Shown: positions 47,852-64,000 of the stretch, one piece after another
Numbering within the stretch: position 1 is the first letter of the stretch
Layout of the letters: each line of letters opens with the position of its first letter
Position numbers and translations under genes: made by a program
The notes under the pieces: model-generated
What the model saw: only the letters and a program-made list of their open reading frames with translations
The model's database searches: none
What the model was told of the DNA's origin: nothing
DNA from: Thermomicrobium sp. CFH 73360
Lineage (GTDB): Bacteria > Chloroflexota > Chloroflexia > Thermomicrobiales > Thermomicrobiaceae
Length of the DNA stretch: 64,000 nucleotides
Direction: 5' to 3'
Assembly (NCBI RefSeq): GCF_023806465.1
Contig: NZ_JAMSLS010000006.1
Location: 1-64,000, forward strand

Positions 47852-48564
47852 CGTTTCTTGCCTAAAGTGTACAGCTCACGGTGTGACGAATGCGTGAGAG
47901 CGACTCGTCACTGTGAACAGTTTGCCAATATCGTGTTGTGCGTGGTGCCGGGAAACTCCTGATCAGTGCAGTGCAGCGTGACGAGCTGTCCTAACACTAT
48001 GTTGCGGGAAAATGACGCTGGAGAGAAGGGCAGGAAGGAGTTCTTCGGATCTCCTGGAACGCCTTCGGGAACAGGCGTACCCCTGTGCAGCAGTGTCTTC
48101 TGTCTGTGGTTGCTCGACGCAGTCGGCGGCGCGGGATGCCGAGGGGAGGGGTCGTTCGTCTCACCTCACATGTTGTCTCCCAGGGGGCACTTCGCAGCGG
48201 TTCCCGTTGGGGAAGAGCGGTGCACCATGCCTTGCAGGTCATGGTTTGGCTTCTTCTCGTCTGGCTGGAGAGGCATGGAAGCTGCCGTGCGAAGGCAAGA
48301 CGTGCTGCATCGTTTCCCCAGGGAGACACCATCCTTAACCCTGTGTTTGGAGACAGCCGCAATCGGCACGGGAAGCGTCTGCCTGTAGGGTAAGGGCAAG
48401 CAGGAACAAGGGTCGAGAGATGGGAGGCGAAAGGCCCTGATGTGCTGCGAGGTACGTCGAGTGAGCCCTGCAAGGGGTCGACGATCGTTTGGATCCGCCA
48501 CTGACGTGGACGCCCTGCGTCTTTGGGTTGGATATACTCGTGCCAGGACACTCCGGGGGAAGGG
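47852..48564. other. Intergenic region upstream of alr
   Basis: No convincing gene is visible; the many short frames lack patterns. A TATACT at 48533-48538, about 27 bp before the alr ATG, is a plausible -10 box without a good -35. At 48497-48513 the region repeats a 17-bp sequence found at 1775-1791, containing CCAC-TGAC-GTGG. Confidence 0.35.
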
Positions 48565-49827
48565 ATGGGGACGACACACGACCCCAGCTCTGGGGTTTCG
48601 TACCACTGCGCAACCTGCTGGAATATTCGCCTCCACGCCGCGCAGGCTGCGCTCCATGCGGTCATCGACCTCGACCAGCTTATGGCCAACGCTCGTGCGC
48701 TCCTGCGGACGCTTCCGCCTGATGCGGAACTCCTTGCTGTTCTCAAGGCGAATGCCTACGGTCATGGACTCGTTCCCGTGGCGCAGGCAGCGCTGGCCGG
48801 TGGTGCGCGCTGGCTCGGCGTTGCCCGCATCGAGGAGGGACTCATCCTCCGCCGCGGTGGTATCACCGCACCGATTGTCGTCCTCGGCCCACCAAACCAC
48901 GCGCGTCTCCGCGAGGCGCTCGCTGCCGATATTGCTCTCGCCGTGGGCTCGGCTGCTGATGTGGCTGCGGTACGAGCTGCCGCGGCACAGCTGAATCGGC
49001 GGGCCCGGCTTCACCTCGAGGTTGATACCGGCATGCACCGCTTTGGCTGCGAGCCGCAGGAAGCCGTTGCACTTGCGCGTGCTCTTGCCACGGATCCGCT
49101 TCTTGAGTTTGAGGCTGTCTATACTCACTTTGCCACTGCCGATGCACCGGATTGTCGCGCGCTCCATCTCCAGCAGACACGCTTCCGTGCGGTCCGCGAG
49201 CGACTGCGTGACGAAGGACTTCACCCACCGGTTGTTCACCAGGCCAACAGTGCTGCGGCACTTCGCGGCGCGATCGGCGATCCCGATCTTCCCGGCCGGC
49301 GGGTTGTCCGCGCTGGTATCGCTTACTACGGCCTTCCGCCGGCGCCGGGACTCGCTTTGCCAGCCGGTATCCGCCCGGCGCTGGAGCTTCGCGCTCGACT
49401 GGTGCGCTGCTTCACCGTTGCGCCTGGCGAGGGGATCTCCTACGGTCACACCTTCATCGCTGACCGCCCGTTCCGCTGTGGACTTGTCCCGATCGGCTAC
49501 GCTGATGGGCTTCCGCGCGCACTGTCCAACCGCGGTTGGTTTGCCGTGAGTGGCGTTCCGTGCCGTATCCTTGGGCGTGTCTGCATGGACCAGACGATCA
49601 TCTCCCTGGAGGAGCTCCCTGCGGCAAAGCCCGGCGACCCGGTCGTTCTCCTCGGTCGTGGGGATGATGGCGCGATGACTGCGTGGGATGCTGCGGAACT
49701 CAGTGGCACAATCGCCTACGAGATCCTCACCAGTCTGGCCGCGCGCATCCCACGTCTCTACCAGCGTGGTGGCCAGATCGTTGCTCTCGCTGATGTCTCC
49801 GGACTCGCCTGGCGTCCCGACACGTAG
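48565..49827 (+). CDS. alr: Alanine racemase
   Basis: A 420-residue fold-type III PLP enzyme. It has VLKANAYGHG with the Schiff-base lysine, VDTGMHRFG, GIAYYGL, the opposite catalytic Tyr in GEGISYGHTF, and the C-terminal GRVCMDQ loop. It makes D-alanine for the cell wall in the cytoplasm. The start at 48565 is behind GGGGGAAGGG; this gives about 35 residues before the first core strand (HAVIDLDQL), longer than usual, so a later start remains possible. Confidence 0.85.
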   Translation: MGTTHDPSSGVSYHCATCWNIRLHAAQAALHAVIDLDQLMANARALLRTLPPDAELLAVLKANAYGHGLVPVAQAALAGGARWLGVARIEEGLILRRGGITAPIVVLGPPNHARLREALAADIALAVGSAADVAAVRAAAAQLNRRARLHLEVDTGMHRFGCEPQEAVALARALATDPLLEFEAVYTHFATADAPDCRALHLQQTRFRAVRERLRDEGLHPPVVHQANSAAALRGAIGDPDLPGRRVVRAGIAYYGLPPAPGLALPAGIRPALELRARLVRCFTVAPGEGISYGHTFIADRPFRCGLVPIGYADGLPRALSNRGWFAVSGVPCRILGRVCMDQTIISLEELPAAKPGDPVVLLGRGDDGAMTAWDAAELSGTIAYEILTSLAARIPRLYQRGGQIVALADVSGLAWRPDT

Positions 49828-49920: not shown

Positions 49921-52215
49921 ATGTCCGATCGACCAATTCGCATTCTCCTCGTTGACGACCACGAGCTCTTCCGACAAGGCCTGCGTCAGCTCCTGGCGAC
50001 GACCGACGATCTTCTTGTCGTCGGTGAGGCGGCCTCAGGTCGCGAGGCCGTGGAGCTTGTCACCCGACTTGCACCGGATGTTGTGCTCATGGACATCGCG
50101 ATGCCGGATCTCGATGGCATCGCCACGACCGAAATCCTGCGCCAGCGTTACCCGGGGATCCGCATTGTCATGCTTACCATGTATGACGCTGCAACGCATG
50201 GAGCGGCAGCGCGCGCTGCTGGTGCGAGTGCCTATGTGGTCAAGAGTAGCCGCCCCGAGGAACTGTTCCACGCTATCCGGGCTGCTGCGAACGGTGCCAG
50301 TCCTCCGCCAAACGGAAACCCCCATCCGCGTCCGACCGTCGGTAGGAAGTTCTCTGACGACGACCGGCTCGCCCACCTGGAACGTCGGTTGCGCTGGCTC
50401 GAGTCGCAACTGGCCGAACTCGCTGCGCGTCAGGCTGCGACCCCACCAGCGGAGCCGAACGGAGCAGCTCGAGCTGCTCGAAGTGTTCCGGCCGCACCAG
50501 TCACGGAAGAAGAGGCGCCGCCTGTTCCTCCGTCCCCACCACCCACATCCGCTGCTCCTGTTGCGGCTCCAGTCGGAGGAGCCCGTCCGACGAGGATTCC
50601 ACGCTCCACTCCAGCTCCTGCACCCATGCGGCGCCTACTGATCTTCGGTGCAGGGACACTCGCAGCTCAGGCGGTAGCGTTGGTCGCACTTCTTGCACCG
50701 TTGTCTCTCCCTCTTCCCACAACCTGGGTTGCACTGAGTAGTGGACTCGCAGCCAGCGTTCTCCTCCTCACGCTGGCAGCAACTGAGCGCGAACGACCAG
50801 GCCTTGCCCATCTCGTCTTACTGCTTCTGCTGGCGAGTGCTGTTTTCTGGAGCATCCTCACGACCTGGCAGGCGAACGTCTTCCTCCGCACCACCGCTTT
50901 TGCTGGCCTTGTCCTCCTCGGAATATCGGCCCTCGGGTTGTCCTGGTGGCGAGGCTTCCTCCTCGCCGCTGCGCTTGCTCTTGCCATGGTCGCTCTGACA
51001 CCGTTCCTGTTGAAGATGCTTCCAGCCTCCCTGGTGCTTCCCTGGATCAGTGGATCGGTTGGGATCGCAACGGTGCTTGCCTGGGTGCAGCTGCGCACCC
51101 GCGATGTCCCGGTCGCGTGGGAGTGGCTGCCGCTCGCCCCGCTGTTTGCCGGACTTCCCTTGCTCCTGGGCTGGGCAGAGCGTGCGCACGGTATGGAAAC
51201 ATCGCTGCTCGCCGTACCTTGGCTGGTACTTGTCCCACTCCTCTGGCAAGCAACTCGTGCCGGTCGCCGATCCGTCACTGTTGTGCTGCTCGTTGCCGTC
51301 GGACTTCTCCTCGGCACCGGGGGCTGGCTCCTACGTAGCGCGGTCCCTGCAACGCAAGCGGCCGCGCTCACGGGCGTCGCGGGTGGTCTTGCGCTCCTTG
51401 CGCTCCTGCTGTGGAAGGCGGCACAGCGGGAACCGCTTGTCCCCGCACCCTGGGAGACAACCGCAGGCCTGGCCGTGCTCACCCTGGCTGTCGGTACAGC
51501 TCGCCATCCGGAGCCAGTTGTCGCACCGGTTGCCTGGTGCGCGCTTGCCGTGCTTGTGGCCGTCTCAGAGCGGAGGCGGATGTTCCGACAATGGGCAGCC
51601 TTCGCACTCTTCCTCGCTGGAGGGCTTGCTGCTCTCTCGGTTGTGCTCCGTTCAGACGACACGATACGGGTTGCCTCGGTTGTTGCGGCTGTGGGGTTCA
51701 CGACGGCGAGTGTCCCTTTTGTGGTGACCAGACCACGGCTCCAACTCACCTGGCTTGCTGCCGGCGCACTCATGCTCGGCCTCGCTGCGACCTGGCAATT
51801 CGAAGGAGTGGGCGAGATCGGTGCACTGAGCGGACTCGCCCTTGCGGCGCTTTTGCTTGCTCGCGTTTCCCCAATGGTCGCGAGTTGGCGCTGGCTTCCG
51901 GCCGCGGGACTCGGCGTCGCTGCTCTTCTGGCGGCACTCACTGGCCCACTCTCGCCAGCCCGTCTTGGACTTTCGCTCCAGCCAGCGGTTCCTGCGACAA
52001 GCGAGCCGATCGTTGCGGCGACCATCCTCGTTGCGGCAGCACTCGCTGCTGGCCGGGTGCTCGGCCGGCGCTGGCGCTGGGCTGCGATTGCTACCGCTTT
52101 ACTCGTCGTCGCCTATGCCCTCCCAGCGGTGCTTCCGGATGCCGCGCTTGTTGTGAGTTGGCTTGCACTCGCCGTTGCGCTTGCTCATGCGCTCGGTGGT
52201 AGTCCGTGGCGGTGA
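49921..52215 (+). CDS. Receiver domain fused to a polytopic (DUF2339-like) membrane protein
   Basis: A single 764-residue frame. Residues 5-125 are a NarL/FixJ-type receiver domain with every key residue: Asp12 and Asp13, phospho-acceptor Asp58 (VVLMDIAMPDLDG), Thr86, Tyr105 and Lys108. No DNA-binding domain follows. Instead there is a coiled coil (about 145-175, LAHLERRLRWLESQLAELAA), a Pro/Ala-rich linker (to about 235) and some 16-18 membrane helices to the C-terminus, an architecture like DUF2339 membrane proteins. A phosphorylated receiver could control the assembly or activity of a membrane channel, transporter or enzyme. The gene follows alr by 93 bp; the ribosome site is weak. Confidence 0.7.
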   Translation: MSDRPIRILLVDDHELFRQGLRQLLATTDDLLVVGEAASGREAVELVTRLAPDVVLMDIAMPDLDGIATTEILRQRYPGIRIVMLTMYDAATHGAAARAAGASAYVVKSSRPEELFHAIRAAANGASPPPNGNPHPRPTVGRKFSDDDRLAHLERRLRWLESQLAELAARQAATPPAEPNGAARAARSVPAAPVTEEEAPPVPPSPPPTSAAPVAAPVGGARPTRIPRSTPAPAPMRRLLIFGAGTLAAQAVALVALLAPLSLPLPTTWVALSSGLAASVLLLTLAATERERPGLAHLVLLLLLASAVFWSILTTWQANVFLRTTAFAGLVLLGISALGLSWWRGFLLAAALALAMVALTPFLLKMLPASLVLPWISGSVGIATVLAWVQLRTRDVPVAWEWLPLAPLFAGLPLLLGWAERAHGMETSLLAVPWLVLVPLLWQATRAGRRSVTVVLLVAVGLLLGTGGWLLRSAVPATQAAALTGVAGGLALLALLLWKAAQREPLVPAPWETTAGLAVLTLAVGTARHPEPVVAPVAWCALAVLVAVSERRRMFRQWAAFALFLAGGLAALSVVLRSDDTIRVASVVAAVGFTTASVPFVVTRPRLQLTWLAAGALMLGLAATWQFEGVGEIGALSGLALAALLLARVSPMVASWRWLPAAGLGVAALLAALTGPLSPARLGLSLQPAVPATSEPIVAATILVAAALAAGRVLGRRWRWAAIATALLVVAYALPAVLPDAALVVSWLALAVALAHALGGSPWR

Positions 52216-54790: not shown

Positions 54791-54941
54791 TTCTATGCAA
54801 GCCTTCCAAGGAACGAGGCGTGCCTTGTGTAGATAGAGTGACTACGGAGCTTTTCCTCTGTCTAGCAGGGTGACTTGGGGATGCTGCGACAGATAAGGGA
54901 CGGTAAAACAGCCGAACCACGACCGGTGTGCTCGGAAGGCA

Positions 54942-54972
54942 ATGCGAGCGGCTAGGATACGATGCGAGCGGC
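54942..54972. repeat. Two 11-bp direct repeats spaced by two helical turns
   Basis: ATGCGAGCGGC occurs at 54942-54952 and again at 54962-54972, 20 bp apart, with TAGGATAC between them and the secreted-protein ATG at 55003 downstream. This is the spacing expected for a protein binding the same face of DNA twice. Confidence 0.4.
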
Positions 54973-55002
54973 GGGTGCGCTGCTCCTGGGAAGGGGAAGA
55001 GC

Positions 55003-56919
55003 ATGCGGGGTGCGCGGAGCGCGCTGCTGATGTTTCTCGTCCTCACTGTGATGGTACCGTTCGGTGTCTCCGCACAAGAGGCGACACCGGCGTGGTGGTC
55101 GCTCGCCGGGATCGACCGCGACCGGGCGCTGGTGCTGGTCAACGGGGATGGGAGAGTGCGCACCGCGCTCGTACAGGGAATGCCCGTGACCGAAGTGGTG
55201 TGGTCACCAGAAGGCGGTCGACTCGCCTTCACGGGACTCCAGAACGGAGTGCCAGTGGTGGGGATTGCGACAACCGGTGCGTCACCACGCGCGTGGGTGA
55301 TTGCTCCCGGGAGGGATCCCGCGTGGTCGACGGATGGGCGATGGCTCGCCTGGCTCGATGGGGACGAGGTGGTGATTGCGACCCGCGAGGGTGAGCGGGT
55401 GCAGCGGGTTGCAGTGGGAGCGAACAGGCTCGTTTGGTCGTTGGATGGTCGCTGGTTGGCCTTCACCAAGCTGACGGGTGAGCCGGACTATTCGTCCTGC
55501 CCGGTGGTCGAGGTAGGATGGATTGCACGTGCGACCGGAGCGGTGACGATGCTTGGCCGGGGCATCGGGGACGTGGCGTGGATCGCCCGGCGAGGAGACG
55601 CTGAGCAGCCGCAGCTGGTGTATACGGGCGCGAGCGACGCGCGGCTCCGGTGGGCCGATCCGACGAGTGGAACGAGTGGTGTGCTCTGGGACGGTTATGC
55701 TGAGACGTGCCGCGGGCCGCTGCTCACCTCAGCGGACGGGCAGTGGCTCGCCTTTCTGGACGCCGCTGGTGGCGGAGACGACGTTGTTCTGCTGAATCTG
55801 GTGACAGGAGGAACGCGGCGGTTGGACGACCTTCCGGTCGGATACCCGAGCATCCAGCTACCGCGGGTGTATCTCTGGCTGGACCCGCTGGCGCGCTTTC
55901 TCTACGCGAGCAGGAGTTTCCCGACGGTCGTGACGCGCGTGGATCTGGTCACAGGGGTGCGAACGGTCGCGGCGGCGGATCCGGGGGTTCTGGTTGCAGT
56001 GGGTCCAGAGGGGGAGCGTCTTGCCTTTGTCCGGAACTCGCCAGGAAAGTTGCCCGTGCTGGTCATCATCGAGCCAGCGACCGGGCACGTGGAAACCGTG
56101 GAGGGGCTCGGCTGGGTAGCGTGGGAGCCGGCGGCCTACCAACCGGTCGTGTTCAGTGCATGGCAACGGACGTGGGAGCGGGAAGACCGGCCGGTAGCGG
56201 GAGGGCTGGCGGCACGGAGTTGGACGTGGGGACCGCAGCCACTGCGGGTGACCATCGAGGAGTACCGCGATGCACCGGGTGGGCGCCGGGCAGTGCTGTA
56301 CTGGGACAAAGCGCGGATGGAGGTGACAGCGCTCTCTGGGAGCCGCGAGACGCGCTGGTATGTGACGAATGGGCTTTTAGCAAAGGAACTGATTACTGGG
56401 CAGGTGCAGATTGGGGACGCGGTGTTTGAGGAGCGGGAACCGGCAATGATTGCGGTGGCTGGTGACCTGGACGATCCGTCCGGCCCCACGTACGCGACAT
56501 TCCACGACTTCCTAACAGCGCCACCACTGCCGGTGGGAGTTGAGATCCGCTGGAGGATGCATCGGGATGGAAGAGTGACGGAAGACGGCCCGGGTGGGGT
56601 ATTTGCGGCAGTGCTGATCCCAGAGACGAACCACACGGTGGCTGATGTGTTCTGGGCATTCCTTCAGAGTGAGGGGCTGGTCTGGGGGGATGACCAAGTG
56701 ACGGAGGGGCGACTCTTCGAGCCGACCTTCTTTGCGACAGGCTTTCCGATCACCGAGCCATACTGGGCAACAGTGAAAGTGGGAGGTGTGTTCCAGGACG
56801 TGCTCGTACAATGCTTCGAGCGGCGTTGTCTGACCTACACGCCGAGCAATGCGCCTGGTTGGCAGGTGGAGATGGGGAATGTGGGACTGCACTACCTCGC
56901 CTGGCGTGATCACTGGTGA
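55003..56919 (+). CDS. Secreted beta-propeller protein with 'RMEVT' module
   Basis: The 638-residue precursor begins with a signal peptide (LLMFLVLTVMVPFGVSA). Residues about 30-380 are WD40/TolB-like blades with repeated 'W-S-x-D-G-R-W-L-A' pieces (VWSPEGGRLAFTG, AWSTDGRWLAWLD, VWSLDGRWLAFTK). From about 395 to the end is the module shared with 27771-29186: PVAGGLAARSWTWGP, DKARMEVTAL, WYVTNGLLAKELITGQ, IPETNHTVADVFWAF and VQCFERRCLTYTPSN. It is extracellular; no enzyme site is visible. ATG at 55003 has GGGAAGGGGAAGAG upstream. Confidence 0.7.
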   Translation: MRGARSALLMFLVLTVMVPFGVSAQEATPAWWSLAGIDRDRALVLVNGDGRVRTALVQGMPVTEVVWSPEGGRLAFTGLQNGVPVVGIATTGASPRAWVIAPGRDPAWSTDGRWLAWLDGDEVVIATREGERVQRVAVGANRLVWSLDGRWLAFTKLTGEPDYSSCPVVEVGWIARATGAVTMLGRGIGDVAWIARRGDAEQPQLVYTGASDARLRWADPTSGTSGVLWDGYAETCRGPLLTSADGQWLAFLDAAGGGDDVVLLNLVTGGTRRLDDLPVGYPSIQLPRVYLWLDPLARFLYASRSFPTVVTRVDLVTGVRTVAAADPGVLVAVGPEGERLAFVRNSPGKLPVLVIIEPATGHVETVEGLGWVAWEPAAYQPVVFSAWQRTWEREDRPVAGGLAARSWTWGPQPLRVTIEEYRDAPGGRRAVLYWDKARMEVTALSGSRETRWYVTNGLLAKELITGQVQIGDAVFEEREPAMIAVAGDLDDPSGPTYATFHDFLTAPPLPVGVEIRWRMHRDGRVTEDGPGGVFAAVLIPETNHTVADVFWAFLQSEGLVWGDDQVTEGRLFEPTFFATGFPITEPYWATVKVGGVFQDVLVQCFERRCLTYTPSNAPGWQVEMGNVGLHYLAWRDHW

Positions 56920-62379: not shown

Positions 62380-64000
62380 TCACTGTGGTGCGCGCAGACT
62401 CGGGATGAGCTTGACGACGCGGCCGGTGCCCGCATCGGCGACGTAAAGTGTTCCGTCGAGACCGGCGGTCATCGAGACAGGGTGCACGAGGCCACTCAGA
62501 AAGGGGAACAGGTCGGCACCTTCTCCATCGGCACGAGGGACGGCACGCAGGAGGGCGCCGACCGTGTCGCGAGTGCCCCAGAAAAAGAGCGTCCCGGGAA
62601 TTGGGTCAGCCCAGAGTTGGGCGGTATAGGCCAAGCCACCGAGGGGATCGAAACCGATTGGAAGTTCGAGGAACGGACGTCGGCGAGCGGTACCGGTGGT
62701 CAGGTCGAGACGTTCCACCCGAGTGTGGTTGTCGCCAGAGTCGACGACAGCGAAGAGGAGCTCGCCCCAGGTGAAGAGACGAACGAGTCCGGGGGGAGCA
62801 GGAACGAGGGGGAAAGCTTGGTCGTCCTGGAGGACCAACACGACTGCGGATGTTGGTGCCTCTCTGGTGGTCGCTGCCAGGTAGATGCGACCACGGTGAT
62901 CCGCGACAGGAGCTCCAGCGGCCCCGGGGAGTGGGTGGATGTCGAGCGGGAGGAGTTGTGTTCGGTCGGCAATTCCATCGCCATCGTCGTCGCGGAGACG
63001 GGTGAGGCCGCGGTCGTCGGCGACATAGACCCACGGGCCAGTGGTGGCGAGTCCTCGTGGGTTGATGAAGCCGGAGGCGAAGGTTGTCAGGCGTGCAGCG
63101 CGTCCCTCAGCATCCTCGGCGGTGACAAGGAGAAGGGAGCCACCGGCAGTGAGGATGAGGAGGTTGCCGTCTGGAGCGAGCGTGAGGTCAACGGGATCAC
63201 GCACGCCCTCGAGGAAGAGTCCGGCGCGGAAGTCCTGGGGAACAGTGAGAGGCAACTCGGCGCCCGGAAGCGGAGACGGCCAAGGCTTGGAGGGATCGAC
63301 ACCATAGCGCCAGCGGTAGTAATGGCGACCGGTATTGGCGATGGTGAAGCGCTGGTCGGTGGGGAGAGAGGGGGTATAGACAAGAATGCGGCGCTCGAAG
63401 ACTTGGATCAAGGACGGGAGCGCTGTTGTGCCGCGCCGGTAATAGGCCCACACCGGTTCACTGATGGGATATCCGAACGTTTCGACCCAGGCGTCTGGTC
63501 CAAGTGGGGAACGATCGAAAAGCGCAACGGTCACGTCCGGTAGGTTGTGGCCGGTCGCTGAGACGAAACGGCCAGGGCGCACTGGGGCCGGTGCAGCGTC
63601 AGTGTGGAGTGTGCCATCGGCGGTGAGCCACTCCTGAAGTGGCCGGTTGGTCGTCGTGCGGTCGCTTGCCGGCGTTGCGACAAGGCGCGCGAGCGCGGCA
63701 TAGGTGGGAACGCGGGGGTCGGGTGAGCCGCCGTCGATGGGGAGATCTGGTGGAGGTCGGCGAGCGACGAGGTCACTGCCGAGCGCGATCTGGCCGGTGG
63801 TGAGTTCCCAGGCGAGGCGACCTTGCGTGACCAGGGTGCGGGAGGATCCAGCCTGGGCAGTGAGTTCCATACGACCGCGGTCGAAGTACTGGACGAGGCG
63901 GCGGCCGGCGGGAGCCTCGGTGTAGGGCTCGATCCGCCAGGCAAGCGGTGTTTGTCCCCAAAGGTCAAGCTGCCCGTTCTGCTGCTTGAGCCACAGTTGC
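62380..64000 (-). CDS. Secreted 'GYPISE' module plus NHL-type beta-propeller protein (5' end off window)
   Basis: The frame continues past 63870 to the window edge without a stop, so the true start lies outside. The visible 540 residues begin with the shared module (LVQYFDRGRMELT, LAWELTTGQI, VPTYAAL), continue with VSATGHNLPDVTVALFDRS, ETFGYPISEPVWAYY and QVFERRILVYTPS, then HYYRWRYG. From about 220 residues before the end comes a propeller of the sorbosone-dehydrogenase/SMP-30 kind (GVRDPVDLTLAPDGNLLIL, PRGLATTGPWVYVADDRG, DGTLYVADAGTGRVV). It is probably extracellular; ligand unknown. Confidence 0.65.
   Translation of the reverse strand, partial: QLWLKQQNGQLDLWGQTPLAWRIEPYTEAPAGRRLVQYFDRGRMELTAQAGSSRTLVTQGRLAWELTTGQIALGSDLVARRPPPDLPIDGGSPDPRVPTYAALARLVATPASDRTTTNRPLQEWLTADGTLHTDAAPAPVRPGRFVSATGHNLPDVTVALFDRSPLGPDAWVETFGYPISEPVWAYYRRGTTALPSLIQVFERRILVYTPSLPTDQRFTIANTGRHYYRWRYGVDPSKPWPSPLPGAELPLTVPQDFRAGLFLEGVRDPVDLTLAPDGNLLILTAGGSLLLVTAEDAEGRAARLTTFASGFINPRGLATTGPWVYVADDRGLTRLRDDDGDGIADRTQLLPLDIHPLPGAAGAPVADHRGRIYLAATTREAPTSAVVLVLQDDQAFPLVPAPPGLVRLFTWGELLFAVVDSGDNHTRVERLDLTTGTARRRPFLELPIGFDPLGGLAYTAQLWADPIPGTLFFWGTRDTVGALLRAVPRADGEGADLFPFLSGLVHPVSMTAGLDGTLYVADAGTGRVVKLIPSLRAPQ

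Follow-up and report, generated by a model that had tools for sequence, protein, structure and literature searches.

A conserved receiver domain fused to a DUF2339-type membrane repeat body in Thermomicrobium and its relatives

The 64,000-nucleotide stretch of Thermomicrobium sp. CFH 73360 analysed here (contig NZ_JAMSLS010000006.1, positions 1 to 64,000; hereafter the window) encodes a protein in which a complete, conserved receiver is fused in frame, via a coiled coil, to a repeat body of the DUF2339 (Arc3A) family, an arrangement found in one lineage. We consider it about an even chance that this protein is a response regulator with a membrane-protein output, in which phosphorylation of Asp58 by the kinase of a LuxR-type regulator would tune the membrane repeats. 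The gene is a single unbroken ORF on the forward strand that runs from an ATG at 49921 to a stop at 52215 and encodes 764 amino acids. Its product consists of a NarL-type receiver (REC) domain (residues 8-120, 49942..50280), a short coiled-coil helix (residues 146-173, 50356..50439), a Pro/Ala-rich linker that is modelled with low confidence and is the fastest evolving part of the protein (residues 174-233, 50440..50619), and a membrane body of about 20 predicted helices (residues 234-758, 50620..52194). By joint alignment and repeat comparison, the last four-helix repeat unit lies at 51883..52200, and the gene stops at the unit boundary. Short DNA repeats within the gene are isolated two-copy matches at most, and promoter and terminator scans return signals no more numerous than in shuffled sequences.

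An earlier reading of the sequence only had described a receiver joined to a polytopic membrane protein with a coiled coil and about 17 helices, and the single ORF, with no DNA-binding domain, bears this out. An AlphaFold2 model of the fusion protein, run on an alignment of orthologues, contains the receiver and the helix at 146-173, followed by a disordered linker and, from residue 234, by 20 membrane-length helices or helix pairs. Hydropathy gives 15 or 17 membrane helices depending on the threshold; we take 20 as the structural estimate, and about 17 is a fair one by hydropathy. Positively charged residues are strongly biased, with 26 Lys/Arg on the side of the N-terminus versus 8 on the opposite side (p 0.005), and the receiver is therefore predicted to be cytosolic, where kinases act.

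The same one-ORF fusion is present in genomes G006 (94%), G002 (54%) and G001 (48%), in three genomes of genus g3 and in one of genus g4. In the finished genome of T. roseum DSM 5159 it is a single CDS on the megaplasmid (NC_011961.1, 143988-146300; WP_012642735.1) that reads as 770 amino acids with the same layout as the window protein. A sequencing or assembly artefact that fused two genes has the broken frame of one metagenome-bin orthologue in its favour (G004:C94:18686-20980, L109; assembly error or decay). It has practically no probability left, since the same single-gene fusion occurs in finished T. roseum and seven other genomes of three genera. The join that the sequence-only reading had flagged as a potential sequencing error thus recurs intact in other genomes, and the relatives carry one ORF rather than two.

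Relatives of the membrane part were found in 20 of the 158 genomes of the class. Outside genera g1, g3 and g4, no receiver was found in those with readable N-termini, most of which start with a coiled coil. DUF2339 matches are present in 26 of 400 genomes sampled from the phylum, to which the whole-genome survey was confined, and the receiver profile has no match among the membrane proteins newly fetched from this sample. Fusions of a receiver to a DUF2339 body, which had been proposed as a search target, therefore occur in three genera of the family and in none of the other DUF2339 proteins of the class or the sampled phylum. Besides T. roseum, a plasmid search returned no record with a match larger than the receiver, and when 84,980 species were scanned with a peptide pattern, a method limited to close relatives, receivers alone came up outside Thermomicrobium and its kin. 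As far as sampled, the fusion is confined to the lineage of Thermomicrobium, a genus of hot-spring bacteria. In the literature searched there is no account of receiver-DUF2339 proteins or of membrane-bound response regulators.

The receiver matches PF00072 over its entire length (profile positions 1-111 of 111) with 98.6 bits against a curated cut-off of 30.2 (E 3.2e-28). A sequence search of the PDB matches it to receivers such as that of NarL (1a04, E 7e-24), and VIA-align superposes it on VraR (7ve6_A) with a Z of 21.9 and an rmsd of 1.7 over 127. All six active-site residues, D12, D13, D58, T86, Y105 and K108, are present, as first noticed from the sequence, and they are invariant in all 8 aligned fused sequences; the codon of Asp58, the predicted phospho-acceptor, lies at 50092..50094 on the forward strand. 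In four comparisons the dN/dS of the receiver is 0.05, 0.05, 0.07 and 0.11, and in the same comparisons that of the membrane part is 0.23-0.48 and that of the linker about 0.5-0.7. The closest pair (the window protein and L110) gives 0.29, 0.21 and 0.45, values that rest on few changes. The receiver is thus the most constrained part of the protein in most comparisons. Some receivers act without phosphorylation, and there is no kinase gene adjacent to the fusion, both of which would suit a receiver that serves as a phosphorylation-independent dimerisation or docking module. Such receivers usually lose some active-site residues, however, and with all six invariant over three genera and a dN/dS mostly of about 0.05-0.11, we regard this as improbable.

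In fold and active-site residues the receiver is that of the NarL/FixJ regulators (LuxR-type; NarL, VraR, LiaR, DesR). These have a GerE helix-turn-helix as output, whereas the fusion has a coiled coil and about 20 membrane helices instead. The GerE/LuxR helix-turn-helix has no match in the window protein or in seven aligned orthologues, and it is present in the paralogue discussed below. A DNA-binding or enzymatic output was also sought more generally and rejected: Pfam identifies no domain besides the receiver, and the PHROGs, PADLOC and shown NCBIfam matches are likewise to the receiver. The T. roseum orthologue (TRD_RS13820, L220:6001-8313) is annotated as a 'response regulator transcription factor', which is at odds with its many membrane helices and with the lack of a DNA-binding domain; our finding corrects this public annotation.

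The relationship of the membrane part to DUF2339 is clear at the level of homology and incomplete at the level of family membership. The window protein does not match the Pfam profile (PF10101), nor is there a PF10101 match elsewhere in its genome. In the genome search the g3 orthologues exceed the PF10101 cut-off (E 1.9e-14 to 3.9e-18, profile positions about 2-348 of 659), and four of eight fused members scanned as proteins match it (best E 7e-18); the matching orthologues belong to the other two genera, g3 and g4, and not to Thermomicrobium. When four sequences of the genus Thermomicrobium were aligned by hhalign with receiver-less DUF2339 proteins of the class, the two proved collinear over 419 columns (probability 95.3%, E 2e-8). 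A unit of four helices and about 105 aa recurs within the body; its last copy matches the preceding one with an E of 1.6e-10 and another more weakly, and the body is at least partly built from such units. In the joint alignment the receiver-less proteins extend about 190 aa further, into the family's best-conserved stretch, whose end reads '...KVFLYDLASLDAxYRVxSFIGLGxLLL', and this C-terminal module is absent from all 8 fused proteins. For this reason we describe the membrane part as a homologue of the DUF2339 body and not as a full member of the family. The earlier label 'DUF2339-like' is right as to the homology of the repeat body and goes too far otherwise, with the window protein below the Pfam threshold and the C-terminal module missing.

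Like the fusion, proteins of the DUF2339/PF10101 Arc3A family have a coiled coil followed by a body of membrane-helix repeats, and the bodies are homologous; the fusion differs in its added N-terminal receiver and in lacking the conserved C-terminal module. Since the coiled coil is already there in receiver-less DUF2339 proteins, the receiver would have joined an assembly element that was already in place. In another genome, a DUF2339 protein within a frame of about 1579 aa (G025:C132; L129, L146, L155) shows by eye many successive similar membrane-helix units, which suggests that proteins of this family lengthen by acquiring further repeats. An AlphaFold2 model of the transmembrane part only (pLDDT 81) was matched by Foldseek and VIA-align to designed helical repeats, toroids and soluble alpha-solenoids, the best being 7rdr_A (Z 16.0, rmsd 11.3 over 403, TM-score 0.28). 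No solved membrane protein is among the matches listed, and these modelled resemblances are uninformative as to function. A PDB sequence search with the membrane profile gave a chance-level match alone (E 0.33).

The nearest receiver in the same genome, at 53% identity, is that of a LuxR-type regulator (L157:5476-6243) adjoined by a GAF/HisKA_3 kinase, and a relative of this kinase stands beside the LuxR-type regulator in all 8 fusion-carrying genomes examined. In phylogenetic trees the fused receivers group with LuxR-type regulators of the order and, once long branches are left out, form a single group, although their clade is weakly resolved (support 49/99). From this we infer that the fused receiver was copied from that of an order-wide LuxR-type regulator. 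Helix alpha1 is a kinase-contacting surface in known receiver-kinase pairs. In genus g3 it is 93-100% identical between the fused receiver and the paralogue, and alpha4 differs; in the window's genus, alpha1 is 64% identical to the paralogue, no higher than to two other regulators. A kinase shared with the LuxR-type regulator is therefore a good lead from sequence comparison rather than a result.

A partner kinase at the locus itself, which the sequence-only reading had suggested looking for, was not found: no kinase gene adjoins the fusion, and every HATPase match in the genome is on a contig other than that of the fusion. The best candidate is the GAF-HisKA_3 kinase at C1:373269-375461, beside the LuxR-type paralogue. 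A soluble HisKA_3-like protein (L172:5524-7008; G000:C1, about 634.5-636.0 kb; 635453) was considered as partner and set aside for its atypical H-box; no receiver gene was found near it. Elsewhere in the genome, a histidine-kinase ATPase domain beside a response regulator (G000:C36:49168-50686) contains two in-frame TAA codons and is possibly a broken kinase gene.

The kinship with one LuxR-type regulator and its adjoining kinase would also suit a different use of the receiver, as a membrane-tethered phosphate sink or kinase decoy. It would then take phosphate from the GAF-HisKA_3 kinase, or hold that kinase at the membrane, and thereby modulate the LuxR-type regulator, the membrane part being mainly an anchor. 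The far better conservation of the receiver and the loss of the C-terminal DUF2339 module would fit such a role. But a body of 500 residues and about 20 helices is a costly anchor that is itself under purifying selection (dN/dS 0.2-0.5) and retains its homology and its full length in all three genera, and we rate this role as rather unlikely.

The direction of signalling could in principle be reversed, with the membrane part sensing the state of the envelope and the receiver reporting it as an input, for instance through control of whether the kinase can reach the receiver. The coiled coil and linker could pass a signal in either direction, and in other bacteria transport-like membrane domains stand upstream of kinases, as in the transporter-histidine kinase fusions of the CbrA type. 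These resemble the fusion in that a two-component module is joined to a large polytopic membrane domain; there, however, the kinase reads the membrane domain, whereas the receiver of the fusion would act on it. Receivers are normally the recipients of signals, and the protein has no kinase, cyclase or helix-turn-helix with which to pass one on, which makes this direction hard to credit.

Under the favoured reading of a response regulator with a membrane output, the receiver would be phosphorylated at Asp58, most likely by the GAF-HisKA_3 kinase neighbouring the LuxR-type regulator. Phosphorylation would alter the pairing of the receivers, as in other NarL-type receivers, and the coiled coil would relay this change to the membrane repeats, whose packing or assembly state would shift. 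The protein would in this way be a relative of the lipid-protecting Arc3A family that has come under regulation. The result may be a rapid adjustment, independent of transcription, of lipid homeostasis in the membrane or envelope, taking the place of the expression-level regulation by which Arc3A is governed in Pseudomonas. The usual outputs of receivers are DNA binding, enzymes or small protein interactions, and a receiver that drives a large integral membrane protein would, if true, represent direct post-translational two-component control of the membrane. The 'uncommon signalling design' proposed earlier holds in so far as the fusion is conserved, its membrane output is uncommon and its receiver is predicted to be cytosolic; that phosphorylation controls the membrane part is a plausible reading.

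DUF2339/Arc3A proteins are widespread and protect against lipase attack. Arc3A of P. aeruginosa (PA5114, DUF2339) prevents the accumulation of lysophospholipids and protects against lipase and phospholipase toxins, and in this species it is controlled through Gac/Rsm (PMC8926400, PMC12663445). Its authors posed the question of which signalling systems govern such defences outside the gamma-Proteobacteria (PMC8926400). Arc3B relatives have been reported in Gram-negative phyla only (PMC8926400), and the Arc3B profile (DUF3999, PF13163) has no match in the window's genome nor in any control genome. The membranes of T. roseum are reported to contain long-chain 1,2-diols and to be without glycerophospholipids, with no plsB present (PMC2615216). 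The function of Arc3A is therefore not simply transferable, given the reported lack of glycerophospholipids in T. roseum and the absence of the C-terminal module, with which an Arc3A-type function may have been lost. In particular, diol membranes sit badly with a role in lysophospholipid protection, even though the window's genome encodes a divergent PlsY and PlsC-like acyltransferases. Among the genomes searched, PlsY (PF02660) is divergent or absent in the fusion-carrying genera, and three other genera of the family have a normal one; this correlation amounts to n = 1, as the fusion genera are probably one clade.

It is tempting to go further and to see here a novel response-regulator class, one whose phosphorylation directly switches the assembly state of a membrane protein made of repeats. 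In this view, a lineage with diol-based membranes would have lost the C-terminal part from a protein of the Arc3A family and gained a duplicated receiver, making membrane-lipid protection a direct output of a two-component system whose kinase also serves a transcription factor. We consider this extension doubtful as a whole. Here the regulatory input is attached to an Arc3A relative, and one of the carriers is a type strain that can be cultivated and whose genome is finished, which opens both regulation and mechanism to testing.

The gene directly upstream of the fusion is alr, encoding alanine racemase (48523..49827, forward strand), separated from it by 93 bp. In most of the Thermomicrobium genomes examined it likewise precedes the fusion directly and on its strand, with a gap of 72 bp in T. 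roseum, and no other conserved operon partner was identified among the genomes compared. Recurring neighbours of the fusion are, besides alr, genes for a FadR/GntR regulator, DinB, rsgA and ctaA. A proline racemase gene is also among the neighbours. Further along the window, an ORF with weak WD40-like propeller repeats (54928-56916, forward strand) adjoins a glycosyltransferase gene, and a second ORF at about 62380-63921 on the reverse strand shares about 36% identity with orthologues of the first.
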